Notes under the pieces: model-generated | Told to the model about the DNA's origin: nothing | What the model saw: the letters and a program-made list of their open reading frames with translations, nothing else | Databases searched by the model: none | Source of the DNA: Planctomycetota bacterium | GTDB lineage: Bacteria > Planctomycetota > Phycisphaerae > UBA1845 | NCBI GenBank assembly: GCA_024280855.1 | Contig: JAJRPG010000094.1 | Coordinates: 19,321-83,320 of the forward strand | Direction: 5' to 3' | DNA: 64,000 nucleotides | Made by a program: the position numbers and the translations under genes | In this document: positions 17,232-35,574 of the stretch, one piece after another | Position numbering within the stretch: position 1 is the first letter of the stretch | Layout: each line of letters begins with the position of its first letter

Positions 17232-18365
17232 ATGAATTGGCTAAGATTATCGCTAATAAGTGCAACTATGCTCTTCGCCTGTGTGCAACCCACTCGTGGG
17301 CAAATCCCGCCTTGGCCAATCACAACCGCTACCACCATCGACAATGCTTTAGCTTACCTCGCTACAGGTTCCGCGGCTGACGGCGGCTGGCAGGCGTTTG
17401 GGCGATCTCACCCGGCTATCTCCGCGCTTGTTCTCAAAGCATTATTACAAGACAAAAATTACGGCCCACAGCACCCCGTCGTGAAGCGAGGGTTGGGTTT
17501 TATCATGCGATTCGTCCAAAGCGACGGCGGTATTTATGTCCCTGGCGAGGGCATGCGAAACTACCACACCAGTGTCTGCCTGCTGGCATTGTCAGCTACG
17601 AAGGATGCCCAATATGAAAAGACCATTCTTAACGCTCAGCGATTCTTAAAGAAATTACAATGGGACGAAGCCGAAGATCACGATCCATCAAGCAGTTGGT
17701 ACGGCGGGCAAGGTTATGGTAAACACAAAAGACCCGACCTATCCAACACTCAACTAATGTTAGAAGCTTTGCATCAAAGCGGTTTATCGCACGACGACCC
17801 GGCCTATCATAAAGCATTGGCTTTCGTGTCGCGTTGCCAGATGTTAAGTGAAACCAACGACCAATCTTTCGCCAGAGGAAGTGATGATGGCGGATTCGTT
17901 TATACGCCGGTTGGTCAGGGTGAGTCCAAAGCCGGAACGGAAATTGTTGATGGCAAGCCGCGACTAAGAAGCTACGGCTCTATGACCTACGCAGGCTTTA
18001 AGAGCATGCTATACGCTCAGGTTGGGCGTGATGATGTGCGTATCAAGCGTGCGTTATCTTGGATGCAGAAACATTACACGCTCGATCACAATCCCAACAT
18101 GCCCACCGCTCAGTCCAGGGAAGGCCTATACTATTATTACCATACATTTGCTCGAGCCTTAGATGCTTGGGGAGAAGATGTTTTAGTAGATGCCAAGGGC
18201 AAGTCACATCAATGGCGGCGCGAGTTATGCGAAAAGCTAATCGATTTGCAACGCCCAGACGGAAGCTTCAGCAACCCAGCCGACCGCTGGTTTGAGGGGA
18301 ATCCACATCTAGTTACGGCTTATGCAGTATTAGCCATGCAAACCGCTATAAATGATGTTAAATAA
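17232..18365 (+). CDS. Prenyltransferase/squalene-oxidase repeat protein, secreted
   Basis: Signal-like N-terminus; repeats such as ADGGWQAFGRSHPAISALVLKALL and QRPDGSFSNPADRWFEGNPHLVTAYAVLAMQ. Confidence 0.75.
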   Translation: MNWLRLSLISATMLFACVQPTRGQIPPWPITTATTIDNALAYLATGSAADGGWQAFGRSHPAISALVLKALLQDKNYGPQHPVVKRGLGFIMRFVQSDGGIYVPGEGMRNYHTSVCLLALSATKDAQYEKTILNAQRFLKKLQWDEAEDHDPSSSWYGGQGYGKHKRPDLSNTQLMLEALHQSGLSHDDPAYHKALAFVSRCQMLSETNDQSFARGSDDGGFVYTPVGQGESKAGTEIVDGKPRLRSYGSMTYAGFKSMLYAQVGRDDVRIKRALSWMQKHYTLDHNPNMPTAQSREGLYYYYHTFARALDAWGEDVLVDAKGKSHQWRRELCEKLIDLQRPDGSFSNPADRWFEGNPHLVTAYAVLAMQTAINDVK

Positions 18366-18371
18366 CAGGCT

Positions 18372-18456
18372 GGGTGGCATGCCCAAGCCCCTAGGCGCGG
18401 GCATGGTCAATCGGATGTTAAACATGCTCGCGCCTAGAGGCTTGAGCATGCCACCC
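18372..18456. repeat. Intergenic inverted repeat, 34-nt arms, 17-nt loop
   Basis: GGGTGGCATGCCCAAGCCCCTAGGCGCGGGCATG (18372-18405) and its reverse complement with 3 transitions (18423-18456). Confidence 0.9.
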
Positions 18457-18588: not shown

Positions 18589-18637
18589 AAGAATTTCGTC
18601 ACATAGCTGTTAGTGATGTGGTATCATTGGAGGTATT

Positions 18638-19213
18638 ATGACAAACATCAGCAGATCAAGACGCATAACCAGAATTCAATTGATGGCGTTGTGTGCGTTT
18701 ACTCTCATCGTTGGCTTTGCCACTTCATCGCTCACGCTATTGGCGGTTCAGATTTTTGTTGGTGGGATTCCTCTTGGTACAGCATATGCAGACATCATTT
18801 TCCAGCAGTTCGCTACAGGACACAATTTGTTCATCTTTGCCCTGATTGGCCTCATTCCGTTTGTCGCACTTCTTATGAAGATGTTATCCATATCTAAGAA
18901 ATACAATGCCCGGAAGTGTTATGCTCTATATCTTAGTGGGCTAATCGGAATACTCGGCTTCATGATTCCATCCCATGTCGATGTGTGGTATCCATTGTAT
19001 GGGCCTGGTCGAATGTCTTCGACAGCAGTAGTTGCATTCATGTTCATACCATTCTGGTGCATTGGTACGATGCTTATTGGCATGTTCGTTGGTCGCCAAA
19101 TTATTAAGATAAAATGGTTTCAAGCATTCCCGGCCGGGCACTGCCAACACTGTGGCTACAACCTCACCGAAAACGTATCCGGAAAATGCTCCGAATGTGG
19201 GAAAGCAATATGA
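18638..19213 (+). CDS. Array gene A: membrane protein with C-terminal zinc ribbon (HCGYNLTENVSGKCSECG)
   Basis: GGAGG upstream of ATG; hydrophobic segments; C-terminal CxxC pair. Confidence 0.8.
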   Translation: MTNISRSRRITRIQLMALCAFTLIVGFATSSLTLLAVQIFVGGIPLGTAYADIIFQQFATGHNLFIFALIGLIPFVALLMKMLSISKKYNARKCYALYLSGLIGILGFMIPSHVDVWYPLYGPGRMSSTAVVAFMFIPFWCIGTMLIGMFVGRQIIKIKWFQAFPAGHCQHCGYNLTENVSGKCSECGKAI

Positions 19214-19800
19214 TCCGTAAGGCTTTCACTAATTTTCGTAGCATCGCTATCTGGTTTATGACGTTAATTTTATGTCTATCGGCGATGGCGGCGTTGGTTG
19301 GGGGGTTCTATCCTCTTGGTTTAACTTTGGTGCAAGATGGTGTTAGTGAAACTTACGTCGGGCTTCGTGCAGAATCAGGTGCAACGGGTTTGTTCATACA
19401 ATTTGTCACAGACCTCCCACAAGATTCTGAAAAAAACACGGTACTAATGATTGGTGAATCGCTGACATCCAATCCGACAGGTGTTGCATGCTTTGTCAAC
19501 AGAATAGAACCCGTAACATGGGATACGTCGCATGTTGAGAATCGCAGCGGATTCCCATTTTCTCAGTCTTTCGAAACCGCTGATTTTCCCTCTAAAATAG
19601 TGCATGGTATGCGACACACAATCATGGTTAGCATACATTGCATACCATTGATTGCGTGCGCTACGCTTGTAGCATTTTTCGTATGTCGCGGTCCTTGGCG
19701 TCGTTGGAATCGACGTCGTTTGGGCCTTTGTCTTCATTGCGGATACAATCTGACGGGAAATGTGTCCGGCAAATGCTCCGAATGTGGGAAAGCCATATGA
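19210..19800 (+). CDS. Array gene B: membrane protein with C-terminal zinc ribbon
   Basis: ATGA overlap with gene A; LCLHCGYNLTGNVSGKCSECGKAI. Confidence 0.8.
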   Translation: MIRKAFTNFRSIAIWFMTLILCLSAMAALVGGFYPLGLTLVQDGVSETYVGLRAESGATGLFIQFVTDLPQDSEKNTVLMIGESLTSNPTGVACFVNRIEPVTWDTSHVENRSGFPFSQSFETADFPSKIVHGMRHTIMVSIHCIPLIACATLVAFFVCRGPWRRWNRRRLGLCLHCGYNLTGNVSGKCSECGKAI

Positions 19801-20360
19801 TCCGCAAGGCAATTGTCGCCATCTTATTTACGGCAAGTCTTATGGTTTGTTTCTGTTGGGCCACGAGTTATGACAACGTGACTCGTCAGAATTGGCCACA
19901 AGGATTGGACTCTTATACTTATTACCCTAATCCGCAAAAATGCTTCTATCTCACTTCATTGCGGGGATGGGTGAGAGTTGGCAAAATTCAGATGAATAAG
20001 CCGTTCAGAGTCCCGTCGGCCAACGATCGAGACGGTTGGATGTGGTTCGGGTTACGTACGTTTCCAGATCCTGACCTAAGGAGTACTAGATTTGGCTCAG
20101 TGATCTTTAGTCACTGCGGCGGTTTGTGGTATACTTTTGGGGGCCCCTTTGCGTCGGGCACTATTAGTGCCATCTCTGTGCCGCATTGGGCATTGTTCAT
20201 TATTCTGATCGCATACCCAGCCACCGCGTGTACCTGCGGATTGTTGCGACGAAGGCGACGACTTCGAAAGCATCTATGTCGTAACTGCGGCTACAATCTC
20301 ACCGGCAACGTATCCGGCAAATGCTCCGAATGTGGCCAACTAATCTCGGAGGAGGTATGA
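19797..20360 (+). CDS. Array gene C: membrane protein with C-terminal zinc ribbon
   Basis: ATGA overlap with gene B; LCRNCGYNLTGNVSGKCSECGQLI. Confidence 0.8.
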   Translation: MIRKAIVAILFTASLMVCFCWATSYDNVTRQNWPQGLDSYTYYPNPQKCFYLTSLRGWVRVGKIQMNKPFRVPSANDRDGWMWFGLRTFPDPDLRSTRFGSVIFSHCGGLWYTFGGPFASGTISAISVPHWALFIILIAYPATACTCGLLRRRRRLRKHLCRNCGYNLTGNVSGKCSECGQLISEEV

Positions 20361-20803
20361 CCGTAAAATTTCGAACATTTCGGCGACGAACAAAAGTTGC
20401 GATGGCTCTTTCCATCGTTTTTTTACTTGTCACCGTATTCAGTTTTACGGCAGTTCAGCATTTCTATATTGACCATTACATTATTGGAATAGCGGGTGGT
20501 GGAATCGACTTTTATGATGTGATATTCAAAGTTGGCTCAATTGAGCCAAGCATCAGTTTCACTACTTGGTCAATTAGATGGCTGCCTGAAATTGAGAATA
20601 ATCCATCTTCTAAATTCTATAATTGCACAGCATTTATTCCTGTATGGATGGTTGCGCCGCTTGTATTCATACCAACATACCTGCTATGGCGAAAAGATCG
20701 ACGTACCCCGAAGGGACACTGCAAAAATTGCGGATACAACCTCATCGGCAACGTATCTGGTAAATGCTCCGAATGTGGCCAACCAATCTCGGAGGTGTCA
20801 TGA
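20357..20803 (+). CDS. Array gene D: membrane protein with C-terminal zinc ribbon
   Basis: ATGA overlap with gene C; GGAGG just upstream; HCKNCGYNLIGNVSGKCSECGQPI. Confidence 0.8.
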   Translation: MTVKFRTFRRRTKVAMALSIVFLLVTVFSFTAVQHFYIDHYIIGIAGGGIDFYDVIFKVGSIEPSISFTTWSIRWLPEIENNPSSKFYNCTAFIPVWMVAPLVFIPTYLLWRKDRRTPKGHCKNCGYNLIGNVSGKCSECGQPISEVS

Positions 20804-21234
20804 CAGCAACACGCAGATCACTTAGGTTGCGTACGAAAATTGCACTGATACTATCTGCTGTGTTAGTACTCATTACCGTAACAAGCTTCACGACAACCAT
20901 TTATGGCTTATTCGATCATTGCGCAATCACTATTGGATACGGTGGAACTGTTTTCAGTCCGAGGACTGAGGGGAGAAGAAATGGTTTCAAGATTAAGGAG
21001 GCTTCACCAATTATATTTTGGCTGCCATGGATCCAGACCGACACAATTGGTAGCACAAATCCTACGACAAGAATGTTTCTTCCCATGTGGATGATTGCGC
21101 CATTCGTATTCATCCCTACTTTTCTCTTGTGGCGAAAAGATCGACGTACTCCGGAGGGGCACTGCCCAAACTGTGACTACGATTTAACCGGCAACGTATC
21201 CGGCAAATGCTCTGAATGTGGAGTGACTATATGA
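20800..21234 (+). CDS. Array gene E: membrane protein with C-terminal zinc ribbon
   Basis: ATGA overlap with gene D; HCPNCDYDLTGNVSGKCSECGVTI. Confidence 0.8.
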   Translation: MTATRRSLRLRTKIALILSAVLVLITVTSFTTTIYGLFDHCAITIGYGGTVFSPRTEGRRNGFKIKEASPIIFWLPWIQTDTIGSTNPTTRMFLPMWMIAPFVFIPTFLLWRKDRRTPEGHCPNCDYDLTGNVSGKCSECGVTI

Positions 21235-21713
21235 TTCGCAAATTTGCCATTTTTATTCTCTTGCTGTGTGCTGCTGCTACGACATATTTTACCGTTGTTA
21301 GCTTCCACCCACGTTACTTTTATTGTGGGGCAATAACTGAATTTGATACCTTGCAAGCACAAATCAAGTTCGGATCTGTCATGTTAGTATACATGCATAC
21401 CGACACGCCGCGCCCGATGGAAACAAGTATCCACAAATTCCGGACTCAAGACCTACCGGACGATGCATTGAAGGCATCGCTGGAGAATATGATTCTATAT
21501 AAAATCAGGTGGTATCGTCCGACCATCTATGGGAATGGTAAAGGTTTTTCGCATGCAATAATTTTACCGTTTTGGGTTCCATTGGGATTGTTCATGCTCT
21601 ACCCTTCCATCGTATTCATCCATGCTCGACGTCGCCGGCGTAGGCGTCGATTAAAGGGGCTGTGCCTCATCTTAAAAGAAAAGGGGTTTTGCGCATCTTG
21701 CCGATTCTCGTAA
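21231..21713 (+). CDS. Array gene F: paralogous membrane protein with zinc ribbon lost; 3' end altered by the prophage junction
   Basis: ATGA overlap with gene E; TM-Arg-rich RRRRRRLKGLCL, then similarity to the paralogs stops before the ribbon. Confidence 0.65.
   Translation: MIRKFAIFILLLCAAATTYFTVVSFHPRYFYCGAITEFDTLQAQIKFGSVMLVYMHTDTPRPMETSIHKFRTQDLPDDALKASLENMILYKIRWYRPTIYGNGKGFSHAIILPFWVPLGLFMLYPSIVFIHARRRRRRRRLKGLCLILKEKGFCASCRFS
21694..21698. repeat. Proposed 5-bp target-site duplication CATCT, left
   Basis: CATCT directly before TG at 21699; matching CATCT at 63307-63311 directly after CA at 63305-63306. Confidence 0.65.
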
Positions 21714-21922
21714 GTCGTTTGTTTATCAGGGGTTACGTTAGAATTGGCGGTTTTTTGGTTCTGCGCGGCGCAGATTGAATCGAGGGGACGCGAAGTGGTT
21801 TGGCATTTCTTGCCGTTGCTCTAAGTACTTTAGAAATCATAGACTTACGACACGAATGCCAAACCTGAGAAAGCGCAATGCGCAATGGAAAACGCAATGA
21901 AACGCGATTATATGCCATTCCT

Positions 21923-22234
21923 TTATTCGTAATCAGGGGAATCACGAATCGCGAAATGGTGTGACAAAACGGCGTCGATCGCATGACACAGTTCGCTGGC
22001 CTCAGCATCGCTCAAGGCCGGCTCATCGTAAAATTCAAGCACACAGCAACTATCGCCAGAGGCTAGGCTGAAAGAGACGTTTGTGCCGACACCGATGAAA
22101 CTTTCATTCGCAGGGATCAACTCCGCGACAAAGCGCGGGGAAATCGTGTGCATGATGAACACACGGGCGTCGCCGGGTTCGGCGGTGTCGTCGATTATGA
22201 ATCTCGGAATCTGTCGGTTGTTGTTTTTGACCAT
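21923..22234 (-). CDS. Hypothetical prophage protein
   Basis: Coding-like ORF in early-strand orientation. Confidence 0.5.
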   Translation of the reverse strand: MVKNNNRQIPRFIIDDTAEPGDARVFIMHTISPRFVAELIPANESFIGVGTNVSFSLASGDSCCVLEFYDEPALSDAEASELCHAIDAVLSHHFAIRDSPDYE

Positions 22235-22782
22235 TACGCTCTTTTCAATACTGAATCAAAATGTTCAATCGTATGATCGTCGCCACTTGAATTCATAGCA
22301 AGTGAAATATCTTCGGAGCAATAGCATGAGCCGTGGTCACTGATGCGTAATTTGATAGTCTGGCAATCGCAATCGCTCAAGTCATCAGCCCCGCTAGCAC
22401 ACAACCCGCATGTTTTGGTTAATTCGTAATATCTTGAATTTGTGTTAAAGCCGCCAGAACAAATGGCTGGCATGTCCCAGCCGTTAGATTCGCAAAGCTT
22501 CCGGACTTGTTTTTCAGTCGATTCTATCCAATCCATCACCGTTTTATTGCGATTGCAATCGTCGCAGTAAATGTCATCGTTGGATTCTTCTATCCACTCA
22601 TTTTTTTCAAGGGTTTTGTCGCAATCACAGCATGATGCCGATACATACATGGCTTCACTGCAAATAGGGCACATAGGTTGTCCTTTGCCAGTCAATTTGC
22701 AATCGGCATAATCCTTGTCGATTTCGCAATCTGAACAGTATATGTTGGCGTTTTTGTTCATTAACATAATACGATTATACAC
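22234..22782 (-). CDS. Cys-rich zinc-ribbon-type hypothetical protein
   Basis: Many CxxC pairs: YCSDCEIDKDYADC, CPICSEAMYVSASCCDCDKTL, YCDDCNRN. Confidence 0.6.
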   Translation of the reverse strand: MYNRIMLMNKNANIYCSDCEIDKDYADCKLTGKGQPMCPICSEAMYVSASCCDCDKTLEKNEWIEESNDDIYCDDCNRNKTVMDWIESTEKQVRKLCESNGWDMPAICSGGFNTNSRYYELTKTCGLCASGADDLSDCDCQTIKLRISDHGSCYCSEDISLAMNSSGDDHTIEHFDSVLKRA

Positions 22783-22840
22783 GTTATTAAGACAGAAGCA
22801 CTGTATAATAATGGGGAAAATTTGTAAGGAGGCTGAGGTG

Positions 22841-24112
22841 TCATAGCGGTTTTCTCGCGCGGGGCTTTGGGCGGTTTAGCTGTTGGTAGAACATTAGCGT
22901 GATGCGTTTTTGGGCTACTGGACTGTCGATGGCTGTGTTGTGGTCTTTGCACCACTGCTCGACCTTGGCTTGGATGTTGTGCGTTTCCGGGCACTGCAAA
23001 TCTGGCCACCACAAGGCGAAGGTTGCTGATGCCTCTTTTCTGGCGTGCTGCTCGCCGCGAGCGGCTCGGAATAGCATGGATCGGTAGTTGCTCTCCAGCT
23101 TGACCATTGCGTCGTGTAGTGAGGCGGCTGGCTCGGCCATGATCGATCCGGGCTGAGCCGCGACCTGGTCGGCGGCGTGGTCGAATCCGATCGATCTCAA
23201 AAACTGGTCGGTGTCTTTTACTAATACCTGTCGGTTCTGGTTGGATGGCGAGGTGACTGGATCGCGGTGCTGGACCTGCTTGGATAATTTGCTGATAGCT
23301 GTCTTGGCAGTGCTGCTGTTGGTGTCGCGTTTACGCGCTTTGGCGGCGGCACGCGAGGCTTGGATGTCGGCACATTTTATCATCTTAAAATACCAATCGG
23401 CATAATCGTACTTGGACCATTTGGCAAAAATCTTGAATGGGTAAATACTGCGGTTGGTGTCGTACTCGTAATAGCATTCGATTGTTTTAAGCACGTCGTC
23501 GATGTTGTATTTTTGGCCATCGGGCTTGAGTAGATTGAGCAGACCTGCGGCGCGTGTCATCATGGGCGTGTCGATGACCTCGCTGTTGTTAATCCGCCAG
23601 GACCACCACATGCAAATCATCATGGCCTCTTTGGCATTGGCCGGATCGACGACTAACAACTTTTTGATCGGCTTAACGTACTTATCTCGCAAGCCGTCGA
23701 TGCCATGAAGCTCGTACATTTTTAGCCATCGGCGAACGCTGCCTGCTTTGCCAATGCGGGCAGCCAAGACCGACTTGGATACGTCAGGGTTGATTTTGAC
23801 CAGGTGTTGATAGCGTTGAACCAAGTCGAGCTTTAGCTTCAACTTTTTGTCGATGGGAACATCGCCGCCTGGCTGCGGTGCTGTTGATCGATAATCGATG
23901 GGCGTGTCCTGACGATTAAACTGAGGCGGAAACTCAACGCGACCTGTTACATGATCGCCATCACGAACGATGTAACAATACATCCCTGCAAATTCAAAAG
24001 TGCCTTGCTGGACCGATGGCCGATCCACTGGCGTGGTTTGAGTCACTGACGTGGTTTGAACGCCGATCGAAGGCGGTTCGATCGGCGTTCGAGTTGGTGT
24101 TGAAGTCGTCAT
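22841..24112 (-). CDS. Hypothetical early prophage protein with helix-turn-helix-like segment
   Basis: NPDVSKSVLAARIGKAGSVRRWLKMYELHGIDGLRDKY resembles transposase/IS-type HTH. Confidence 0.6.
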   Translation of the reverse strand: MTTSTPTRTPIEPPSIGVQTTSVTQTTPVDRPSVQQGTFEFAGMYCYIVRDGDHVTGRVEFPPQFNRQDTPIDYRSTAPQPGGDVPIDKKLKLKLDLVQRYQHLVKINPDVSKSVLAARIGKAGSVRRWLKMYELHGIDGLRDKYVKPIKKLLVVDPANAKEAMMICMWWSWRINNSEVIDTPMMTRAAGLLNLLKPDGQKYNIDDVLKTIECYYEYDTNRSIYPFKIFAKWSKYDYADWYFKMIKCADIQASRAAAKARKRDTNSSTAKTAISKLSKQVQHRDPVTSPSNQNRQVLVKDTDQFLRSIGFDHAADQVAAQPGSIMAEPAASLHDAMVKLESNYRSMLFRAARGEQHARKEASATFALWWPDLQCPETHNIQAKVEQWCKDHNTAIDSPVAQKRITLMFYQQLNRPKPRARKPL

Positions 24113-24131
24113 TTTTGTCGTACTTCTAAAA

Positions 24132-24737
24132 CTAGGCCAGTATGGCTTTGTCCGTTTCCTTCTTCATGCGCTTCATGGATTTCTCAAGCATGTTGATGCG
24201 TCGATCGGCTCGTTCAAAATTCTGCGTCATATCGCGTAACGCGCTTTTCAGCCCTTGGTTTATACTTGCGTAAGATTTAACAGTAGCGATTAGATCATCG
24301 ATCGTATCTTCAGGAGACTTCGGTTCTTTAGGCAGTGGAGGCAATGGCGTATCGAGCAATAGTTTCCTTGTGGCCTTGACCCGTTTTTGGCCCAAGACGA
24401 TTTCACCACGCTCGACGTATTCCTTTTCCGTGACACCGGATTCGATGGCTGCGAAAATACGTTGGCGGGTTTCGTTCATGTGTTCGATCAACTCGAAGTT
24501 CTCGTTCATCCATGTTTCGATGGATTTTCCTTCGCTATGGATCATGTCGAGCAGCTTGTTGTGATAATGCTTCTGCATCATCATGATATTCCACGCGAAG
24601 CGATAAGCTGCGCGTCGCACGGCTCGCACGCCGCTCACTAGCTTACGTGTTCCGGTCGCAAGATTGCCCGATTCTTTGAGGGCGTCATGCCACAGATTGT
24701 CGAACTTTGGAACTTGAACTGTTTTCTTGTTGGACAT
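24132..24737 (-). CDS. Hypothetical early prophage protein (coiled-coil C-terminus)
   Basis: Internal ATG (MSNKKTVQV) with GGAG spaced upstream; heptad-like C-terminus FERADRRINMLEKSMKRMKKE. Confidence 0.5.
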   Translation of the reverse strand: MSNKKTVQVPKFDNLWHDALKESGNLATGTRKLVSGVRAVRRAAYRFAWNIMMMQKHYHNKLLDMIHSEGKSIETWMNENFELIEHMNETRQRIFAAIESGVTEKEYVERGEIVLGQKRVKATRKLLLDTPLPPLPKEPKSPEDTIDDLIATVKSYASINQGLKSALRDMTQNFERADRRINMLEKSMKRMKKETDKAILA

Positions 24738-25421
24738 TTGAATTACTCCTTTTTTTTTATACCAACCTCTATGCTTTGAACAATAGAACCCTGTTTTGTT
24801 AATCCTGATTTGACTTGGAGATCGTGGACCAGTATCGCAATTACAAATTACGCATTTGGTATTACATGCGCCCTTATTTCTGAGAAAACCGTGACGTTTA
24901 TTTGCGCAGCTTCTGCATCTGTTACCCGACTCCTGATTGATTCTATGGGGTTTCAGCCATCCGAGTGGATGATTGCAATCTTCACAGTAACAAATCCTGC
25001 CACCTTTGTAGCACGGAGCATGTACGCCATGTTGGTGTTTAACGACGCAGGATCGACAGCGATTTCCTGCTTGAAAATTGATCTGGGCAGGTGAAAACCA
25101 TCCGAGAGATTTGTTGCAATCTTTACAATAGACAAATTGCCCGCCTGACCACGATGGGTGTCGCTCACCAATACAAAGCGTAGACGGGATAACCCCCTTG
25201 AGTAAACGGGTTGTTCGTGCATAACAATTTTGGCACATGCCTTTTGCGTAGTGTTTTGTTAATACTGAGCATTCAGGGCATACAATTAGTTTTCGAGCTT
25301 GCCTTATCATAGCGAAATGGCATTTCCGGCAACGCGATGCTTGGGGTTTTTTTCCCCCACCACAATCAGGGCACACGCGTGCTTGCTTAGTCTTCGGTTT
25401 GTCTGTTGTCGAAGCAGTCAT
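24132..25421 (-). CDS. Long form: repeated zinc-ribbon protein continuing in frame into 24132..24737
   Basis: Repeated CKDCNKSLGWFSPAQINFQAGNRCRSC / CEDCNHPLGWLKPHRINQESGNRCRSC; no stop before the MSNKK start. Confidence 0.5.
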   Translation of the reverse strand: MTASTTDKPKTKQARVCPDCGGGKKPQASRCRKCHFAMIRQARKLIVCPECSVLTKHYAKGMCQNCYARTTRLLKGVIPSTLCIGERHPSWSGGQFVYCKDCNKSLGWFSPAQINFQAGNRCRSCVVKHQHGVHAPCYKGGRICYCEDCNHPLGWLKPHRINQESGNRCRSCANKRHGFLRNKGACNTKCVICNCDTGPRSPSQIRINKTGFYCSKHRGWYKKKGVIQMSNKKTVQVPKFDNLWHDALKESGNLATGTRKLVSGVRAVRRAAYRFAWNIMMMQKHYHNKLLDMIHSEGKSIETWMNENFELIEHMNETRQRIFAAIESGVTEKEYVERGEIVLGQKRVKATRKLLLDTPLPPLPKEPKSPEDTIDDLIATVKSYASINQGLKSALRDMTQNFERADRRINMLEKSMKRMKKETDKAILA

Positions 25422-25422
25422 T

Positions 25423-25743
25423 TTATGAACACGTCGCCTGTAATAAGTAGTAGTCGTATAGATCGACGTCGCCGTCTTTGTCGGCGTCGAATAGTCGCTC
25501 GCAACCCTCTGGCAAATTGGGCGTCCACGGTCCCCATTCACACAGTGGGTTGAATATGTCCTCGCCCGTGGCAGTTCGATCATCAACAAATCCACTCACG
25601 CCTTGCGGGCATTGCCCCGACCTTCCCCATGACGGTGTCATGTTCATGGGCGTGTCAATGATGCGTACATGGACGATGTTGCCAGGGCCATAAATGCACG
25701 TGCCGAATGCGAAAAGTGCTGCGCATAATTTAATCGGTGTCAT
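25423..25743 (-). CDS. Small secreted-type protein with dockerin-like C-terminus
   Basis: N-terminal hydrophobic segment; C-terminal LFDADKDGDVDLYDYYLLQATC; ATGA overlap with the RecQ-like gene. Confidence 0.5.
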   Translation of the reverse strand: MTPIKLCAALFAFGTCIYGPGNIVHVRIIDTPMNMTPSWGRSGQCPQGVSGFVDDRTATGEDIFNPLCEWGPWTPNLPEGCERLFDADKDGDVDLYDYYLLQATCS

Positions 25744-27032
25744 CGGTGTGACCTCAAATTCTCGTAGTAGATACACCTGTCACAGGCGCTGCAAAATTCG
25801 CGGTCATAAGTGCCGCCAAAATGGTGAACCAACTGATGGTGCAAGCATACGCCGCGTTCGCAAAAACTATCCATGTGCGATAGCGCGCAGTTACGAGCAT
25901 TTGTAATGTCGGGGCTAAGATTTTTTTCTAACTCGTCGATCTCGAACAGGCACATCCAATAATGGTAGTCACGTTTGTGGTGGAACATGATGCAGTCGGC
26001 TGGCTCGCCATCACGACCGGCTCGACCAATCTCCTGATGATAAGTCTCGATCGAGGATGGCATACAAGTGTGGACGACATAGCGGACGTCGGGCTTATCG
26101 ACGCCCATGCCGAACGCGATGGTGGCGACGACGATTTTAATCTCATCAGCCATGAAACGATCTTGCACGTCGCGGCGATCGGCATCGTCCATGCCCGCGT
26201 GGTACGCGGCGGCACTGTAGCCTTTAACACGCAAGGCTTCGGCGATGCCTTCGGTCTCGCCACGGGTGGGGCAATAGATGATGCCCGCGTGACCTTTTTG
26301 GCCGGTGTGTGGGTAGACAGCCTCTCGCAAAAGCTGGTCGGCTAAATCCTGACGGAAAATCAACGATAGGTTTAGGTTGGGGCGGTCGAAGTCACCCACA
26401 TATATCGCGGCGGCATCTAAGCCGAGAATGCTTATGATTTCGTTGCGGACCTCTAGCGTGGCGGTGGCAGTGAATGCCGCTATGGTGGCATTGTTATACA
26501 CGACGCGAAGGCGGTTGAGCTTCTGATAATCGGGCCGGAAATCATGGCCCCATTGACTAATGCAATGGGCCTCGTCGATGACGACATAGCCAACTTGGGA
26601 TGGTCCAATCGCCGTGATGAAAGCTGGCGTCAACACGCGCTCTGGCGAAACGTATAAAATGTCTAACAAGCCCTTGCTGGCCTGATCGTAAATCTCGGCG
26701 TGCTGGCGATGGTCCTGGCCGCTGTGCATGTAAGCGGCCTCCATTTCGATCGAGGCGAGCTTGCATATTTGATCTTCCATCAGCGCTTTGAGCGGTGAGA
26801 CAACGATCATCAAACCGCTGGTGTATTTGGCTACGCCTTGAAAGATCAGGCTCTTGCCACTGCCCGTTGGCAGCACCGCGAGCAAATCGCGGTCGTCTTC
26901 GATTAGCGCCTCAATGCACTCATGCTGAAGCGGGCGAAACTCTTTATGGCCCCAGTCGTGCAGGATGCGATCGTAAACCGTTACGCCGGGCCTTGAGCCG
27001 AGCGGGATATCAGATGGGAAGGTGATTGTCAT
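25740..27032 (-). CDS. RecQ-like superfamily 2 DNA helicase
   Basis: FRPLQHECIEALIEDDRDLLAVLPTGSGKSLIFQ, VVSPLKALMEDQ, VVIDEAHCISQWGHDFRPDY, HQEIGRAGRDGEPADC, Cys cluster near C-terminus. Confidence 0.9.
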   Translation of the reverse strand: MTITFPSDIPLGSRPGVTVYDRILHDWGHKEFRPLQHECIEALIEDDRDLLAVLPTGSGKSLIFQGVAKYTSGLMIVVSPLKALMEDQICKLASIEMEAAYMHSGQDHRQHAEIYDQASKGLLDILYVSPERVLTPAFITAIGPSQVGYVVIDEAHCISQWGHDFRPDYQKLNRLRVVYNNATIAAFTATATLEVRNEIISILGLDAAAIYVGDFDRPNLNLSLIFRQDLADQLLREAVYPHTGQKGHAGIIYCPTRGETEGIAEALRVKGYSAAAYHAGMDDADRRDVQDRFMADEIKIVVATIAFGMGVDKPDVRYVVHTCMPSSIETYHQEIGRAGRDGEPADCIMFHHKRDYHYWMCLFEIDELEKNLSPDITNARNCALSHMDSFCERGVCLHHQLVHHFGGTYDREFCSACDRCIYYENLRSHR

Positions 27033-27484
27033 GCAGATGGTTCCTTTCGTTTCAACATGTTCTTGAGGACGCGGATGATTTCACCGGCACGTTTCGAGGT
27101 TTCGATTTGCGATGGTGTGGGAAACCCGAAGTTGTTGAATAGCCATCGCTCGAACGCTGCCTCATCGTCGAAACATTGCGAACCGAGCCGGGCGATCTGC
27201 TGCACCTGGTCATCGGTGCGCATGCGCAATCCTTTGGGCTTGCCCTTGTACGCCGATGGTTTTTTGCCGGGTGGGTTGGCCGGGTCTTTGCCAGATAAAC
27301 GCTTAATCATGTCACTCGCGCCTGCGCTCGAAAGATCGTGCAAGCGAGAGCCTGCCATGTCACGCACCTGGTCAACGGATAAGCCGCGACGACGGGCGGC
27401 GATCATGATCGTCTTACGCTGCAAAGCCGTTGACGAACCGGGATTCGTTTTCAATGATGCCATCAGGTAAAAAGTTTCCTCCAT
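27029..27484 (-). CDS. GemA-like (DUF1018-type) Mu-like early protein
   Basis: RKTIMIAARRRGLSVDQVRDMAG...RMRTDDQVQQIARLGSQCF; ATGA overlap with the helicase gene. Confidence 0.5.
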   Translation of the reverse strand: MEETFYLMASLKTNPGSSTALQRKTIMIAARRRGLSVDQVRDMAGSRLHDLSSAGASDMIKRLSGKDPANPPGKKPSAYKGKPKGLRMRTDDQVQQIARLGSQCFDDEAAFERWLFNNFGFPTPSQIETSKRAGEIIRVLKNMLKRKEPSA

Positions 27485-27654
27485 ATACGATCGATGATTT
27501 CTGTTCGCTGCTCATTCACGGACAAACCATATTGGCTATGCGCGTAATCCAATTTCATCTTGGCGATGAAATGCCTCTCCGATGAAGTCATCGCTCGACC
27601 TGCGATGGGCTTAGCCTCAAAAATCTGTAATAGTTTGTTGCACGCATCTAACAT
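27463..27654 (-). CDS. Small hypothetical protein, paralog of 27665..27853
   Basis: Shared pattern AGRAMTSSERHFI / DGRRMTDWELDFV and EIIDRIWRKL / VIITRIWNKV. Confidence 0.5.
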   Translation of the reverse strand: MLDACNKLLQIFEAKPIAGRAMTSSERHFIAKMKLDYAHSQYGLSVNEQRTEIIDRIWRKLFT

Positions 27655-27664
27655 TGGTGGTTTC

Positions 27665-27853
27665 CTACCGACAAACTTTGTTCCAGATACGAGTGATTAT
27701 TACAAGACGATTGGGTGTCATCTGTAGTCCGAATTTTGAGCAGCGTTGACGTTGAGCGCTTTCCACGAAATCCAATTCCCAGTCGGTCATCCTTCGACCA
27801 TCGTCAGGATTGTGTTCTAAAATTTCCGATAGCATGTCGTGAGCGTCTGGCAT
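27665..27853 (-). CDS. Small hypothetical protein, paralog of 27463..27654
   Basis: See paired ORF; start at MPDAHDML preferred. Confidence 0.5.
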   Translation of the reverse strand: MPDAHDMLSEILEHNPDDGRRMTDWELDFVESAQRQRCSKFGLQMTPNRLVIITRIWNKVCR

Positions 27854-27863
27854 TAGTGATCCT

Positions 27864-28085
27864 TTAGTTGCGAGAGATTTCACTTACTAGATTTGGGACA
27901 TTTATATGGCTTGGGAGTTTATGACCGGGCCTGACTTGCCCACTCCATCGACCTTCGTTGAACTTGATGATGCGTATGTTTATACCGGGTGGCCATGGCG
28001 CATCCAGCGGATTTCTCTTGGGACGTTTGCCCTTAGAAAAATCCAGTATCTGACAATCAGATTGTACTTTTTCGTGATCCTTCAT
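27864..28085 (-). CDS. Small hypothetical early prophage protein
   Basis: ORF in operon orientation. Confidence 0.4.
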   Translation of the reverse strand: MKDHEKVQSDCQILDFSKGKRPKRNPLDAPWPPGINIRIIKFNEGRWSGQVRPGHKLPSHINVPNLVSEISRN

Positions 28086-28115
28086 TTGTTCCTCCTCGAA
28101 CTAGGTGCGTTGGTA

Positions 28116-29261
28116 CTATGTTCCAGTCGCCGCTGTGCGTGCCGAGGTTTGACGCCTGAGATTGACGCGGTCCTGGTCGGTGTGCGTAGGACGCAACTTG
28201 GATTCCACCCACACCAAATCATGAGCCGTTATTTTGACCTTGTCGCCATCGCTAAGACCTTGTTTTTTACGGGCTTTGCGGGCCGCGTTTTTCAATAGCG
28301 ACTTGCAGCGACGTAGCGATCCCTCGCCTATACGGTTGGCGACATCTTGTAGATACTTCACCGCATCGATCGATAGCTTGATTGGTGTACGGTCGTAAAG
28401 CTTTCGGATTTCCTCTACGCTGAACAACGGCTTACCGCCGGTGTAGACATCCTTGCCCTCGGTCAAATGGTGAATCACGTCGTATCGGCTATATAGCTGA
28501 CCATGATCGGGACCGATGGTGGCCACCAACCGATCGTGTAGATCGGCAGTGGCAAATAGCAACACAGGCACGCCGGTCGTATCGTGAATGTCGCGCAAGA
28601 ATTCTAACGCGGAGTCGTTTAGTTTTTGGGCCTCGTCGATTATCAACATGCGATCGCTATCAAGTAATCTATCCATGATGCGCTCGATGCGGGTCATGGA
28701 ACGATGCCCCGCAACTGTTGTGCCGAGCAAGTCAAGCTTTAGAGAAATCGCATGAGCCAATCCACGTGGATGGTGATAGCTATCTATGATGCGCACATAA
28801 ACCGATCCCACGTAATTATGATTGATGGCCTGGGCGCAGCGACTTTTACCAACGCCGGACGGTGCGAGCAACAACCCCATTGTCCTGTTTTCGTGAACCA
28901 ATCGAGCGGCGGCGAGTATGGCTTTGGCTACGCGGGTCTCGACATATTCTTCGTCGATGGACGCAGCCTTGGCACGGGCGTGCTGCTCGATCCGTGCGTT
29001 GAGTGTGCGAATGTATTTGTCGGCGTTCTCACGCCATTTGCGATCCATCAACTCGCGGATCGTGGTGTTGCCTGGCTTGCCAAGCTGCTTCGCCACATCT
29101 TTGGGTTGGATGTTGTTGCGATCAATATACTCGATGAAATTGTTCATCGCCAAGCATCGCTCTTGATCCGTCAATTCGCCGGTATTGGGCAGCGTCCATG
29201 CAGCCATGAGTATTTGATCCTTATCCTGTAGGATGTCTGTTAAGTTGTGTTGATCGGTCAT
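28116..29261 (-). CDS. MuB-like AAA+ ATPase (transposition target activator)
   Basis: N-terminal HTH-like; MGLLLAPSGVGKSRCAQAI Walker A; DRMLIIDEAQKL Walker B; ATGA overlap with transposase. Confidence 0.85.
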   Translation of the reverse strand: MTDQHNLTDILQDKDQILMAAWTLPNTGELTDQERCLAMNNFIEYIDRNNIQPKDVAKQLGKPGNTTIRELMDRKWRENADKYIRTLNARIEQHARAKAASIDEEYVETRVAKAILAAARLVHENRTMGLLLAPSGVGKSRCAQAINHNYVGSVYVRIIDSYHHPRGLAHAISLKLDLLGTTVAGHRSMTRIERIMDRLLDSDRMLIIDEAQKLNDSALEFLRDIHDTTGVPVLLFATADLHDRLVATIGPDHGQLYSRYDVIHHLTEGKDVYTGGKPLFSVEEIRKLYDRTPIKLSIDAVKYLQDVANRIGEGSLRRCKSLLKNAARKARKKQGLSDGDKVKITAHDLVWVESKLRPTHTDQDRVNLRRQTSARTAATGT

Positions 29262-31462
29262 AACAATGACGACAAGTCATCTGACAAGTCGTTGGCGTCA
29301 TCCGTAACCGTTTCCTCATTATCAACGAACAGGTCATCCATGCCCTGGTCTTCCTCGTGATGGTCCCAATTGGTTTCTGGCACTTCGTCTTCAAACAAAT
29401 CTTCCAAGTCGTCGGTGTCGATCGGGACGGGTTTGAACGCCGTTCGATCGGTTCTCGAAACGCTATCGACGCCAAGATGAACGGGCACGATGTTGACGAC
29501 ATTTTTATCGTCGGTGCCGGTTTTCATGACGTGCGTATGCTTCTCGTTGTGTATGTGCATGGCTTCCTGCTCGACGCTGCGAGACTGCGTGATACGATTA
29601 CGCTGCACCTTGTTGGCCTCCTTACGACTGCCCTGAACGCGACGCTGGGCCTCGCGTAAATCGTCTACATGCGTACCGGGCGGTAGCTGTTTGTTGGCCT
29701 CTAGCCGACCAAGCAGGCGGCGGGTTTCGATGTCCAGCACATGCACGTGTTCGCAATGCTCAACATCCAACGCGACCAGCACCTTGCGACCTTTTAAGCT
29801 CTTGAGACAAGCTGCATATTGACCGTACGTCACACTGACGCCTCCGGCTGTTATGGTCACACCGTTGGCCCCGACCTTATACGCCCCGCGCATGTCCATC
29901 ATTAAAAGTAACTGATCTTCGACGGCCTTACGCAATCGAGAGGCGGTGTGCCACACGGCCAGCGGGGCTTGATTATTTAGCCCGCTATGCTCGGTGCGGT
30001 GATAAGTGTCTATGTACTCGCATATGTGCTTACGGGCGTCGTCGAAGCTTGGCACGTTGGCGATGTCCTTACGCAACTCCTCTACATAGTCGGGCTTATA
30101 GTCTGATGATTTGCCGCAATAAGTGGCAAAATCCTTGTCGCACTGATCGTGCATCGTGCCGTACCAACGCTCCTGAATGCCCTTCGACCAAGGCGCGTAC
30201 GGTATGGCGTAGTGGACCTTAATGCCTAACTCTTCGTACAAACCTAGCCAGCGGGCGTCGTTGGCGTCGAGCAAGCCGTCGCTCTTTTTAGCCACCTTTT
30301 CCCAATCGTCACCGTGGGTACGTTTTAGCGCATCCATCTGACGCTTGGTGATACCCGCAAATAGCTTCGATCTAAAATCCTTGCCGTTATCGAGTTTGAT
30401 ATGCTCGCAAATAGCCCAATCCCGAAACGCCATACGCAGTGCCGACATGATGGCATCTTGATGGGGCGACTTACCCAAATGCCAGCCGACGACACAACGC
30501 GATCGGCAGTCCATAATGGTGGTGAGCCACGGGCGGATCGTTTTGCCACGATGTCTTACCCAATAGTCGCAGATGGTGTGATCGGCTACATACCATTCGC
30601 CTGGCTCTACCGTGGTCCAGTCGATGCTTATGAATGACATGTACTTTCGCTGCCAAGATTCTTTGCCCTCACGCATCAAACAGGTCAACGCCAGGTCATC
30701 ACTTTTCTTTAGCCAGAGCTGCGTTGATCGTGCCGACGTGGGCCAGGCCAGGTCGTGCTTTTCGGCGTCGCGCAAGGTGGCGTCGTGACAATACTTGATC
30801 GATCGCCGCTTTTGCGTGTGCCACAAGAAATAGAAGTGTTCGATCGACTCTTCACACCGGCCACTTTGTGGCTCGCTCCCTGACAATCCGTCGTCGCCAC
30901 CACCATCGCCGCTACCGTATTTGGGGATCAACGACTCGACGCCTGCGATGTGACCGCTGGTTGTCATGCGGTTGTAGTCTCGCCACCATGTTTGCAAGCT
31001 ACGCGGCGAAATCTTAAACGGAGCTGGCTCCGCATGTATGGCATCAGCGGAAACTTCGTAGGCGATTTTAATGGCCAAGTGGCCATCTCGATTAAACGAT
31101 AGCCGCTTACGCCATACATGCATCCAATGAGCCTTGCGATAGGCACGCTCGACGTGATGTTGCGGGTAGCTGTGGAGCAAGGACGCTTGGTCTCTGTCGT
31201 CGCGGGTGTTGTTGTTGGGGCAGGTCGATAACCTGGGATCGATGCGGCGATGTAACCACCAACAACACTTGCCCTTACCATTGCGTGGTGGCGCCTTGCG
31301 TGCCCTGCCCTGCTTTTGCAAGTAGCTATTGCACTGCCACGACAACGTGCGTGCGGCTACGCCCATGAGCGACGACGCCTCGTCTATGGGAACCCAGGCG
31401 TCGGCGGCTTTGATGTCGCTGCGCGAGCGAAACGAATCAGATTGTCTGATTGCTATAGCCAT
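29258..31462 (-). CDS. MuA-like DDE transposase
   Basis: WYVADHTICDYWVRHRGKTIRPWLTTIMDCRSRCVVGWHLG...HIKLDNGKDFRSK...YAPWSKGIQERWYGTMHDQCDKDF. Confidence 0.9.
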   Translation of the reverse strand: MAIAIRQSDSFRSRSDIKAADAWVPIDEASSLMGVAARTLSWQCNSYLQKQGRARKAPPRNGKGKCCWWLHRRIDPRLSTCPNNNTRDDRDQASLLHSYPQHHVERAYRKAHWMHVWRKRLSFNRDGHLAIKIAYEVSADAIHAEPAPFKISPRSLQTWWRDYNRMTTSGHIAGVESLIPKYGSGDGGGDDGLSGSEPQSGRCEESIEHFYFLWHTQKRRSIKYCHDATLRDAEKHDLAWPTSARSTQLWLKKSDDLALTCLMREGKESWQRKYMSFISIDWTTVEPGEWYVADHTICDYWVRHRGKTIRPWLTTIMDCRSRCVVGWHLGKSPHQDAIMSALRMAFRDWAICEHIKLDNGKDFRSKLFAGITKRQMDALKRTHGDDWEKVAKKSDGLLDANDARWLGLYEELGIKVHYAIPYAPWSKGIQERWYGTMHDQCDKDFATYCGKSSDYKPDYVEELRKDIANVPSFDDARKHICEYIDTYHRTEHSGLNNQAPLAVWHTASRLRKAVEDQLLLMMDMRGAYKVGANGVTITAGGVSVTYGQYAACLKSLKGRKVLVALDVEHCEHVHVLDIETRRLLGRLEANKQLPPGTHVDDLREAQRRVQGSRKEANKVQRNRITQSRSVEQEAMHIHNEKHTHVMKTGTDDKNVVNIVPVHLGVDSVSRTDRTAFKPVPIDTDDLEDLFEDEVPETNWDHHEEDQGMDDLFVDNEETVTDDANDLSDDLSSLL

Positions 31463-31468
31463 GATTAC

Positions 31469-31732
31469 TTACGCAGCGACTACGCGGGCTTTCTCCATGT
31501 TGGCTAGAAATTTTTCCATCAAGTCCGGTCTTGTGGACCTGCTGTAATTGATCGTGATTTTACGGTGCCATTCGCCTTCAATAATTGCGTACAAAGTTTC
31601 AATCCCTCGCTTGCAAAAATCACAATACAAATAGGTGATGCGTTGGGAGCCGAGATCGTCTACCACAAAATGCTCGCAGTCCACGCAACCGTTGCAGGTG
31701 GGGCAATGTTGGATCGGGGAAAATTCACGCAT
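31469..31732 (-). CDS. Small zinc-ribbon hypothetical protein
   Basis: CPTCNGCVDCEHFV...YLYCDFCKRG. Confidence 0.5.
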   Translation of the reverse strand: MREFSPIQHCPTCNGCVDCEHFVVDDLGSQRITYLYCDFCKRGIETLYAIIEGEWHRKITINYSRSTRPDLMEKFLANMEKARVVAA

Positions 31733-31994
31733 GAGACAAATCTCCTTGAGATAAATCCCTGTTACGGGATAATTCTCCGTTATGATTTTTGGAGGCTCGA
31801 CAAAAAACGCATAGCTCAGATAAGGTTTGGCGGATACGCACCTCGTCGGAGGCGTCGAATAAAAGTAGCTCTTGTGATTGATGGCGACCGCAGCGGCATG
31901 ACACGATGGTTTTCTTGTGGATCGGTTCGCCGAGCCAACAAGCCAAGAACGCCATCGCCGGTAGCGAGAGACTGAAAATTATGATATCGATCAT
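31725..31994 (-). CDS. Small hypothetical protein with N-terminal TM segment
   Basis: MIDIIIFSLSLPAMAFLACWLGEP; overlaps neighbours as in an operon. Confidence 0.4.
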   Translation of the reverse strand: MIDIIIFSLSLPAMAFLACWLGEPIHKKTIVSCRCGRHQSQELLLFDASDEVRIRQTLSELCVFCRASKNHNGELSRNRDLSQGDLSHA

Positions 31995-32515
31995 AGGTTG
32001 TGTACCTTTCGATCGAATGACTTGGCGTGTGCTTGCATGATGTACGCATGTAACTGCGCGTCACGGACGCGGTGCAACTGGTGGGTGTGGTGATATTTAA
32101 CCACGGACTCTTTATCCACATCGTCCACGCGACCGTCGGCGATGATGTCAGCCAGGTGCATCATTTGCTTATGATGTAGACCTTCTTGCTCAACGGCGGC
32201 TCTGAACATGTCGCCGGGACTTAGCGGATCGATGAAATCGTTATGAATGATTTCGTACTTGCCAGAGTTGCCGAGTAGTAATTCCAAGATGCGCAAGTCG
32301 AAGCTATGCTCTAACCAACAGCGCCAGAAATAGATGGGGATGTTGTACTTGCCGGTTCCGTAATCGCTGATGGTTTGCAGAGACTTGCCGGTCCATGATG
32401 CGACTAGCTTGCGCGATAGGGCGTAAGTCACACCAGTGATGCAATCGGTGACGATAGGCGACTGATCGAATAGTTCGTTTAGTAGTTGTGCGTCGGTATT
32501 CATCTCGTAATGCAT
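31991..32515 (-). CDS. Possible phage regulatory protein with HTH-like segment
   Basis: RKLVASWTGKSLQTISDYGTGKYNIPIYFWRCWLE; first gene of the leftward early operon. Confidence 0.45.
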   Translation of the reverse strand: MHYEMNTDAQLLNELFDQSPIVTDCITGVTYALSRKLVASWTGKSLQTISDYGTGKYNIPIYFWRCWLEHSFDLRILELLLGNSGKYEIIHNDFIDPLSPGDMFRAAVEQEGLHHKQMMHLADIIADGRVDDVDKESVVKYHHTHQLHRVRDAQLHAYIMQAHAKSFDRKVHNL

Positions 32516-32611
32516 TAGGCGTCCCTACCTCTTCCGGATATTCAGGCTCGCCAATCCGTTGGCGTTGCCGTTGCTGCGTGATATAAGTTTTTCGTTAGCA
32601 CTAGGAGCCAA

Positions 32612-32699
32612 CCGGGGCGGCGTTACTCGGTTACAAACAACGCCGCGCCGGACTGGGCATCCAAGGTGACACAATCTTCCGGCGGGACCGCCCCGCCGG
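32612..32699. other. Two adjacent hairpins in the regulatory intergenic region
   Basis: CCGGGGCGGCGTT (32612-32624)/AACGCCGCGCCGG (32639-32651); CCGGCGGG (32679-32686)/CCCGCCGG (32692-32699). Confidence 0.7.
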
Positions 32700-32713
32700 A
32701 CTGGACGAAACTC

Positions 32714-32902
32714 TTAACGCCGCTTGTGGCGGCGGTCGTTTAAGCTTGTGGTGCGGAAACGCCTGGCCAGGGCAGCCGCGCCTTCCTGAGCTACGCGAGC
32801 CAGGTCGCGCTCGAAAACCGTGATGGAAATCGATTGGCCGGTTTCATTGGAACGAAAGGAGGCTGTTACTGTAGGTCGAGGTTTTTTAGGGCGATTGGGC
32901 AT
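32714..32902 (-). CDS. Small basic hypothetical protein
   Basis: ORF; ends just beside the hairpin pair. Confidence 0.4.
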   Translation of the reverse strand: MPNRPKKPRPTVTASFRSNETGQSISITVFERDLARVAQEGAAALARRFRTTSLNDRRHKRR

Positions 32903-32904
32903 TA

Positions 32905-33066
32905 TTAGCCTGCCTTCCTTAATTTTTTAACCAGAGCCTCCGCCAGAATTTTTTGGGCCTGCTTGGGCGTGAATCCCTCAACCGTGAGAGATTCGCTCTT
33001 TCTGCGGCGTTTCCGGTCGCGTATTTCGATGTATACGGCGTCAGATTTCTTCTTCGATAATTTCAT
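32905..33066 (-). CDS. Small basic hypothetical protein (start at MKLSKKKSD preferred)
   Basis: MKLSKKKSDAVYIEIRDRKRRRKSESLTVEGFTPKQAQKILAEALVKKLRKAG. Confidence 0.4.
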   Translation of the reverse strand: MKLSKKKSDAVYIEIRDRKRRRKSESLTVEGFTPKQAQKILAEALVKKLRKAG

Positions 33067-33139
33067 TGCAATCAATGCTACCAATGATAGCGATGAATGT
33101 CGAATTGATTCCGGAAAAAAATCCGCAATAATATCAACG

Positions 33140-33487
33140 ATGGAAAAAATAACGAAAGAACCGACTAAACCTTTGCAGTTAAGACTGCCAAGCTCTGTGT
33201 TTGATCGACTAGAGCAAAGATATCGTGCGAGCGGCGTAGACAAACAACTACAGGCGTTGGCCGGTATAATTGCAATTGAATCACTCGATCTTGCCCGTAG
33301 AAACGAGGCAATAAATTTTGCTACGCGGATTTCACTAGGCGAAATATCAATGGACGAGGTAGTTGATCTATATCAGATGAAAGACACGGGTCAGGGGTAT
33401 TCTGATGGATTGATTGATGCCCTAAGGCAACTAGAGCGGGATGCTGTACCCACAAAAACAAAGCGTCGGCGGGCATCAGGTCAATAA
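33140..33487 (+). CDS. Hypothetical protein, candidate regulator, divergent from the early operon
   Basis: MEKITKEPTKPLQLRLPSSVFDRLEQRYRASG, RHH-like N-terminus. Confidence 0.45.
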   Translation: MEKITKEPTKPLQLRLPSSVFDRLEQRYRASGVDKQLQALAGIIAIESLDLARRNEAINFATRISLGEISMDEVVDLYQMKDTGQGYSDGLIDALRQLERDAVPTKTKRRRASGQ

Positions 33488-33769
33488 GTTTGTGAGCTTT
33501 TTCACGGGCTAAGACAATTTCGTCGCGTAGAGGTAGCGTTAGCCGATCCATCGGTTGCCTCCAGAATGGTGCGTGCTCGACGGGTGTCATCCATGACATC
33601 GCAATTCCTTGGCCACCGCCAAGCACAAAAGATGAGTTGCTGGCATGGCCACGACTGTAAGCCATTGTTTGCAGTGTATGGGTTATGTTAGGGCAAGTCA
33701 AGCCGCAATATGTAGGGGATGGATTATGGGATTTTACTGCACCGAGTGTGACACCCGAGGGATAATGCG

Positions 33770-34672
33770 ATGACGAAACGTAACCGCAAACGCATTACCA
33801 ATGCTAAACCTTCTTGGTCGGAATTGAAGGAGCAATGCTATCAAAATTTTTCTCAACGAATTGCGGAACTCCACGATACAGAGCTAATCGTGATCCAAAA
33901 GACCGTCGTACAGATATTGTCAGGTATAGAGTCGGGAATGTACGTCAAGGACGTTTTCAATGTGCTTCAACAAATAGGGCCAATTGTTTCAAGGGGAAAT
34001 ATGTTGTTAGGTTGCCAATCAATTGTAAGGGATGTAGATCATTACAGGTCGAGAGTTGGAGCTGCGGATCGACCTATCGAACCTGATCCCGATATTGGCA
34101 ATACGTTTCCGTATCTGAGATATTACACGGTTGGGAACGGGACGCCCGGAACGAATATGGTCAAAGAATCACATGCTAAGCTGCATCGTATTATAGTTCA
34201 TCGTGATGACGAGTTTTGGAAATATCATACACCACCTTGGGAGGATGGCTGTAGATGTATGTGTTCCCCATTAACGAAAGGGCAAGTCGAGCGCGAAGGG
34301 TTGCCGGTACGAAATTTGGAGTATGTACGTAATGTGCTCGGTGTAGAAGTTGGCCCTGAGGAATTCCACCTTGGTAATATGGATATCGAATCATCAAGGA
34401 AGATTTTTAAGGCTAGATTTGAATGCGCCATATATAAAGCCATGTTGGCATATGTAGATAATCCACTCAAGCAGTTGTTGGACGGTGCTGTTAGTAGTGA
34501 GCAGACTCGACAAGTGTCGTGTGAGTCTGTGGATAGATGGAAGTCCTTAAATGCAGAATTGAAAACCACTGACAGCCCGGTCACTGCATTGGCAACAGCC
34601 GAAGACAAACTCACCACATGGAAAGAGCAGTTGGAATTTGTTGAAATGAGAATGTCAGAAAAAAAACTTTGA
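33770..34672 (+). CDS. Second MuF-like (phage Mu head morphogenesis F-like) protein with extended C-terminus
   Basis: FPYLRYYTVGNGTPGTNMVKESHAKLHRIIVHRDDEFWKYHTPPWEDGCRCMCSPLTKGQV parallels FRFRRYSTVGNGVPGTNRVRADHAILHGKVFRWNDPFWNTFTPPWDFGCRCTMQALTAGQV at 41510..42262. Confidence 0.75.
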   Translation: MTKRNRKRITNAKPSWSELKEQCYQNFSQRIAELHDTELIVIQKTVVQILSGIESGMYVKDVFNVLQQIGPIVSRGNMLLGCQSIVRDVDHYRSRVGAADRPIEPDPDIGNTFPYLRYYTVGNGTPGTNMVKESHAKLHRIIVHRDDEFWKYHTPPWEDGCRCMCSPLTKGQVEREGLPVRNLEYVRNVLGVEVGPEEFHLGNMDIESSRKIFKARFECAIYKAMLAYVDNPLKQLLDGAVSSEQTRQVSCESVDRWKSLNAELKTTDSPVTALATAEDKLTTWKEQLEFVEMRMSEKKL

Positions 34673-34680
34673 GAGAACGC

Positions 34681-34709
34681 TTGACTTTTGCGCGCGTCCC
34701 GGGTTATAA
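34681..34709 (+). promoter_or_regulatory. Candidate sigma70-type promoter TTGACT-17 bp-TTATAA
   Basis: TTGACT 34681-34686, TTATAA 34704-34709, 17-bp spacing. Confidence 0.5.
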
Positions 34710-35485: not shown

Positions 35486-35509
35486 TGGGGCAAGTGAACT
35501 AAAGACTGG

Positions 35510-35529
35510 ATTCCCGCCTGCGCGGGAAT
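35510..35529. repeat. REP-like palindrome ATTCCCGCCTGCGCGGGAAT
   Basis: Stem ATTCCCGC/GCGGGAAT; related copies near 49471-49546. Confidence 0.75.
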
Positions 35530-35574
35530 GACGGACACATAAGCAAGGATGCTGATGTTGCGAAGGATCGCACG

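Follow-up and report, generated by a model that had tools for sequence, protein, structure and literature searches.

In the pilS/pilE and vlsE cassette families, variable blocks are flanked by constant blocks, which recombine. A cysteine ribbon attached to a membrane segment is found in the LITAF-type zinc domain, where a hydrophobic segment sits between the two knuckles. Two rubredoxin/ribbon-type CxxC knuckles are likewise present in the Pfam families DUF7129 (PF23455), Zn_ribbon_15 (PF17032) and DZR (PF12773), and in rubre_like_arch of NCBIfam. SHOCT is not a cysteine ribbon. It was described as a short promiscuous terminal domain (PMC3581485). At the level of gene organisation, short overlaps are enriched for subunits of heteromeric complexes (in E. 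coli, 30% versus 7%, PMC10666635), and strict coupling from short overlaps was found in 13 of the 14 pairs tested (PMC6728339).

We analysed a stretch of 64,000 nucleotides, hereafter the window, which is contig 7 of a planctomycete genome of 4.56 Mb whose relatives are Phycisphaerae MAGs. At 18638-21713 it contains six ORFs on the + strand, A to F, joined by five ATGA overlaps in which each downstream ATG (B to F) shares 4 nt with the preceding TGA. A preliminary description, made from the letters of the window, had reported this arrangement, and its coordinates were found to be exact. The −4 overlap occurs at all five of these consecutive, one-strand junctions, versus none of 10 pairs of same-strand neighbours in the window's host DNA and 5 out of 23 in its prophage part. 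The overlap pattern in the array exceeds chance.

Table 1. Features of the array, its flanks and the adjoining prophage, in window coordinates.
Feature	Position	Strand	Remarks
SQHop_cyclase_C-like repeat protein	17232..18365	+	Upstream syntenic marker, 83-88% identity in two congeners
Palindromic REP/MITE-like dispersed repeat	18372..18456		Between upstream gene and A
GGAGG Shine-Dalgarno of gene A	18629..18633	+
Gene A	18638..19213	+	191 aa, four TM helices predicted, ribbon at C-terminus (codons 19142-19198)
Gene B	19210..19800	+	196 aa, MIRK-type, 2 TM, ectodomain of ~110 aa, ribbon (codons 19729-19785)
Gene C	19797..20360	+	187 aa, MIRK-type, 2 TM, ribbon (codons 20277-20333)
GGAGGAGG Shine-Dalgarno of D	20348..20355	+	Within final codons of C (tail ISEEV)
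Gene D	20357..20803	+	148 aa, D-type, 2 TM, ribbon (codons 20720-20776)
GGAGG upstream of E	20791-20795		In final codons of D; resembles Shine-Dalgarno of D
Gene E	20800..21234	+	144 aa, D-type, ribbon (codons 21163-21219)
Gene F	21231..21713	+	160 aa, MIRK-type, without ribbon; final codons are prophage DNA
Mu-like prophage, ~41.6 kb	21670..63295 (edges approximate)		Between array and mraZ
MuB-like ATPase	28116-29261	-	Prophage gene
rve transposase	29258-31462	-	Prophage gene
Terminase	38361-39890		Prophage gene
Portal	39887-41215		Prophage gene
Protease	42259-43494		Prophage gene
Major head protein	44514-45458		Prophage gene
mraZ	63444..63923	+	Downstream syntenic marker, 95.6% identity to G002; adjoins array in congeners

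The genes are in tandem, as had been claimed, but they are not six equal paralogues. Judged by their sequences, they fall into three types: A; the true paralogues D and E, which are 56% identical; and B, C and F, a second type with a MIRK start and a common pattern in the second TM segment. Hydropathy predicted two TM helices in B to E and four in A, which is a different protein. Overall identity of A to its neighbours B and D is 34-37%, with the tail supplying most of the alignment, and A-type paralogues are found elsewhere in the genome, on contigs 40 (43% identity) and 5 (38%).

A nearly constant ribbon, CxxC[GD]Y[ND]LxxNVSGKCSEC, terminates A to E, the five copies in which it had been noticed, and is absent from F; F-type genes with a ribbon exist on contigs 107 and 5. 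Its four cysteines, putative zinc ligands, are invariant across 24 aligned proteins, and the CxxC knuckles are separated by about 11 residues, which are polar. Among eight D-type proteins, mean identity was 45% over the N-terminus and TM1, 76% in TM2, 77% in the linker and 81% in the ribbon, versus 21%, with 16% gaps, in the ectodomain. This agrees with the earlier statement that the segment between the TM helices varies while the tail stays constant. A typical member consists of a basic N-terminus, which is short, followed by TM1, a variable ectodomain, TM2, an Arg-rich stretch and the constant ribbon. By the positive-inside rule, the basic N-terminus and the Arg-rich stretch after TM2 suggest that both termini are cytosolic, a placement of the tail that would suit a reduced zinc ribbon.

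Membrane proteins predicted to have as many as 8 TM segments also carry ribbons, at either the C-terminus or the N-terminus; related ribbons in the N-terminal position are seen on polytopic proteins of the host genome (L031:1456-2283, L030:1447-2256 and L056:1150-1632). A single ORF (L123:9918-10859) carries two ribbons, as though adjacent array genes had fused in frame. When the other ribbon proteins of the genome were searched in Pfam for fused enzymatic domains, only ribbons were returned.

Sequence searches of the array proteins in Pfam, NCBIfam, PADLOC and PDB gave nothing above cut-off. The zinc-ribbon families with similar knuckles scored well below their curated cut-offs (best ~17 bits versus ~29), and none of their models spans the TM-ectodomain-TM-ribbon layout. 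D had a weak score against LITAF in Pfam (16.9, for a cut-off of 23.8); this domain was rejected, because the array knuckles are close together, polar in between, and have no hydrophobic segment between them. Like SHOCT, the array ribbon is a short module at the C-terminus of many proteins that are otherwise unrelated, and has no assigned function; unlike SHOCT, it comes after TM2 and an Arg-rich stretch and is common to tandem arrays. Structure prediction had been proposed as a check and was run on D and C. AlphaFold2 returned a low-confidence model of D (pLDDT 68), with a TM helix, three strands, a TM helix and the ribbon, and no predicted structure for the ectodomain of C. Confidence in both ectodomains was below what a fold search would need.

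On inspection of the sequence, genes B, C and F have no Shine-Dalgarno, so these three should rely most on reinitiation. A single message, translated by termination-reinitiation, is the probable source of the array proteins. A promoter scan gave a result at chance level, and terminator-like sites were just slightly more numerous than the shuffled expectation. A hairpin followed by a T run, terminator-like, is present at 20399-20418, at the start of the D coding sequence.

In the congeners G001 and G002, the order of the locus is SQHop-like gene, array, mraZ, rsmH. The Mu-like prophage, with its head genes on the + strand, lies between array and mraZ in the window and so places them 42 kb apart. 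Homology of F to its ribbon-bearing relatives ends near position 21669, and on contig 62 a related stretch begins at 21673, which indicates that the prophage edge is where F lost its ribbon. The ribbon-less F would then be the remnant left when the prophage landed in the gene. At the right edge, the remainder of F and the spacer are missing, about 100 bp as judged against G001, and no target duplication was identified at the prophage edges. One prophage ORF (24132-25595) is zinc-finger-rich, with several CxxC pairs, and has no Pfam match. The palindromic repeat upstream of A is 82-128 bp long, with ends GGGTGGCATGC[CT]CAAGCC, and occurs at about 20 loci of the genome (L153-L171); it lies beside a ribbon gene at about 5 of these 20, where a rough estimate would give about 0.55.

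At this same site, the array comprises six genes in the window, two in G001 (a D-type followed by a MIRK-type gene) and a single D-type gene in G002. Between congeners, the flanking genes are 83-96% identical and the array proteins 46-50%, so the array either evolves much faster than its surroundings or turns over. Near the lone array gene of G002, a small ParE-like/antitoxin-like gene pair was noticed by eye (L101:10475-11175).

The family is not limited to this locus. In the host genome, 53 places matched the ribbon query under a loose threshold, 46 places matched D, and further array fragments lie at the ends of contigs 107, 112 and 5. Matches, many of them in tandem, were obtained in 37 of 40 relatives. 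A profile of 24 sequences, run on 294 genomes of the phylum, detected the family in at least 14 genomes of the host's class, the host genome itself among them, and in at least one outside it, these counts being lower bounds as 13 candidates were scored per genome. Six relatives searched in full gave 5 to 47 matches each; copy numbers in this search ranged from 5 to 20 in the genus and reached 47 in the taxonomic family. The commonest spacing of tandem ribbon genes was −4 (18 of 36 close pairs, four of them from the window), and tandem pairs with this overlap recur in several further genera. Many family members are solitary genes. Beside the arrays, no conserved partner gene was found beyond within-genus synteny and a few common flanks.

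The survey of relatives that had been proposed thus revealed copy-number variation at one site and widespread tandems. It also modified the view of the array as an undescribed system of the window: the family does appear undescribed, no description of it having been found in the literature searched on Phycisphaerae and zinc ribbon, but the array is not a one-off, the family to which it belongs being widespread at the level of the class. Its anatomy, spread and turnover are, as far as sequence data go, well supported.

Evidence on how the copies diversify comes from a pair of F-type genes, one on contig 107 and one on contig 5, which share about 94% identity over 332 nt and diverge abruptly at the first CxxC. 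In the ribbon, 11 of 16 sites show synonymous differences, versus 8 of 64 upstream (p=2e-5), in what is a single clean breakpoint, from a MAG in which contig 5 starts within its gene copy. Past the first CxxC only ribbon-level similarity is left, and the DNA beyond the ribbon is unrelated. Such an abrupt divergence inside the ribbon marks ribbon DNA as a recombination junction, and it is the trace to be expected if two different genes had crossed over at their ribbons. In an all-against-all DNA comparison within each genome, many matches consisted of TM2 and the ribbon, or ran from TM2 through the ribbon and the stop/start into the TM1 of the next gene, and those between paralogues skipped the ectodomain. 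Since each gene ends in the same block (TM2, ribbon, stop/next start), recombination there would add, delete or swap whole in-frame genes, and would shuffle ectodomains over a fixed scaffold. This candidate mechanism of diversification is partly shown. The likeness to pilS/pilE and vlsE lies in the tandem variable blocks between conserved blocks and in the breakpoint within a constant block; unlike in those families, the array copies are complete coupled ORFs, and neither a single expression site nor silent cassettes were seen.

Synonymous codons of the ribbon were more similar within loci than between loci in the host genome (p=0.005), and not significantly so in four other genomes; gene conversion inside arrays was therefore rejected as a general rule. 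The tree of the D family is star-like within the genus, and positional orthologues do not cluster. A 145 bp repeat (97.9% identity) is found 3' of two ribbon genes on different contigs (L066:4494-4638 and L074:3773-3917). The dN/dS comparison suggested earlier was made on the ectodomain of the close pair from contigs 107 and 5, and gave a dN of 0.057 and a dS of 0.125 (dN/dS ~0.46). This suggests that the genes are maintained, and no positive selection was seen in this pair. The word diversifying, used of the set in the preliminary description, is apt for a family with a fast-diverging ectodomain, a constant tail and six, two or one copies at one site.

We give about even credence to the following explanation: a Phycisphaerae family of small inner-membrane proteins, whose ectodomains are shuffled by recombination in the ribbon block, and which would form receptor or sensor complexes. 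A D-type gene directly precedes a MIRK-type gene in six cases versus one for the reverse order with strict counting, and in eight versus two with relaxed counting, in several genera (p ~0.06, the cases not being independent). This order weakly fits subunits of a hetero-oligomer and, together with the known enrichment of overlaps for heteromeric subunits, favours hetero-oligomeric receptors or subunits with ribbon docking. As to function proper, we propose tentatively, at somewhat less than even confidence, that the proteins are subunits of envelope receptor/sensor complexes, which would be assembled co-translationally and in which the shared ribbon would serve for docking or oligomerisation on the cytosolic side. 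Given the solitary members and the N-terminal ribbons on polytopic proteins, the formation of complexes cannot be obligatory. The same observations keep alive another reading, in which the ribbon serves as a tag for sorting or quality control, recognised by one shared factor in the cytosol (an insertase, protease or scaffold), and the jobs of the array proteins are unrelated. A module that can sit at either terminus of a membrane protein would resemble SHOCT in this respect (PMC3581485); however, no candidate reader was found, and the NVSGKCSEC type of tail is mostly confined to the array types, so that we consider a tag unlikely. Lineage-specific expansion with birth-and-death turnover is a possible explanation, though one we lean against: the genes would encode redundant small membrane proteins with no common function or complex, and the overlaps would reflect compact packing. 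Copy numbers in the genus and family, the lack of conserved neighbours, the ungrouped positional orthologues, and the frequency of −4 overlaps among prokaryotes at large all agree with it. It accounts less well for a ribbon and a TM2 that are strongly constrained while the ectodomain varies, for −4 junctions that recur in distant genera, and for the apparent purifying selection on the ectodomain of the close pair.

The preliminary description had raised the idea of a defence or recognition module. A system of this kind, serving defence or telling self from non-self by means of diversifying ectodomains, would be in line with the rapid ectodomain divergence, the modular shuffling and the restricted distribution. 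PADLOC did not bear it out, its one match having an E of 0.057 over 26 residues only; moreover, the neighbours typed by Pfam include no defence genes, synteny marks the adjoining prophage as a chance insertion, and positive selection was not seen. We hold this module to be improbable. Carriage of the genes by a phage or another mobile element is very improbable. The prophage does abut the array, and palindromic repeats lie near several ribbon genes, but the array is outside the prophage, congeners have mraZ directly beside it, and only 3 related loci were found in 2.9 million viral contigs. Synteny and this rarity largely refute a phage origin of the array.

To return to the shuffled receptor or sensor complexes, their widest form, a class-wide, recombination-driven repertoire of two-TM receptors with crossovers in the ribbon block, co-translated hetero-oligomers and one common cytosolic partner that would recognise every product by its ribbon, seems to us unlikely. 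The family, which many Phycisphaerae, members of an environmentally common class, carry in dozens of copies per genome, stands without a name, a domain model or an assigned function. Its combination of a constant membrane-ribbon block, a variable outer block and coupled genes would explain how it expands without breakage of the reading frame, and this layout makes it testable whether Phycisphaerae maintain a diversifying repertoire of envelope receptors.
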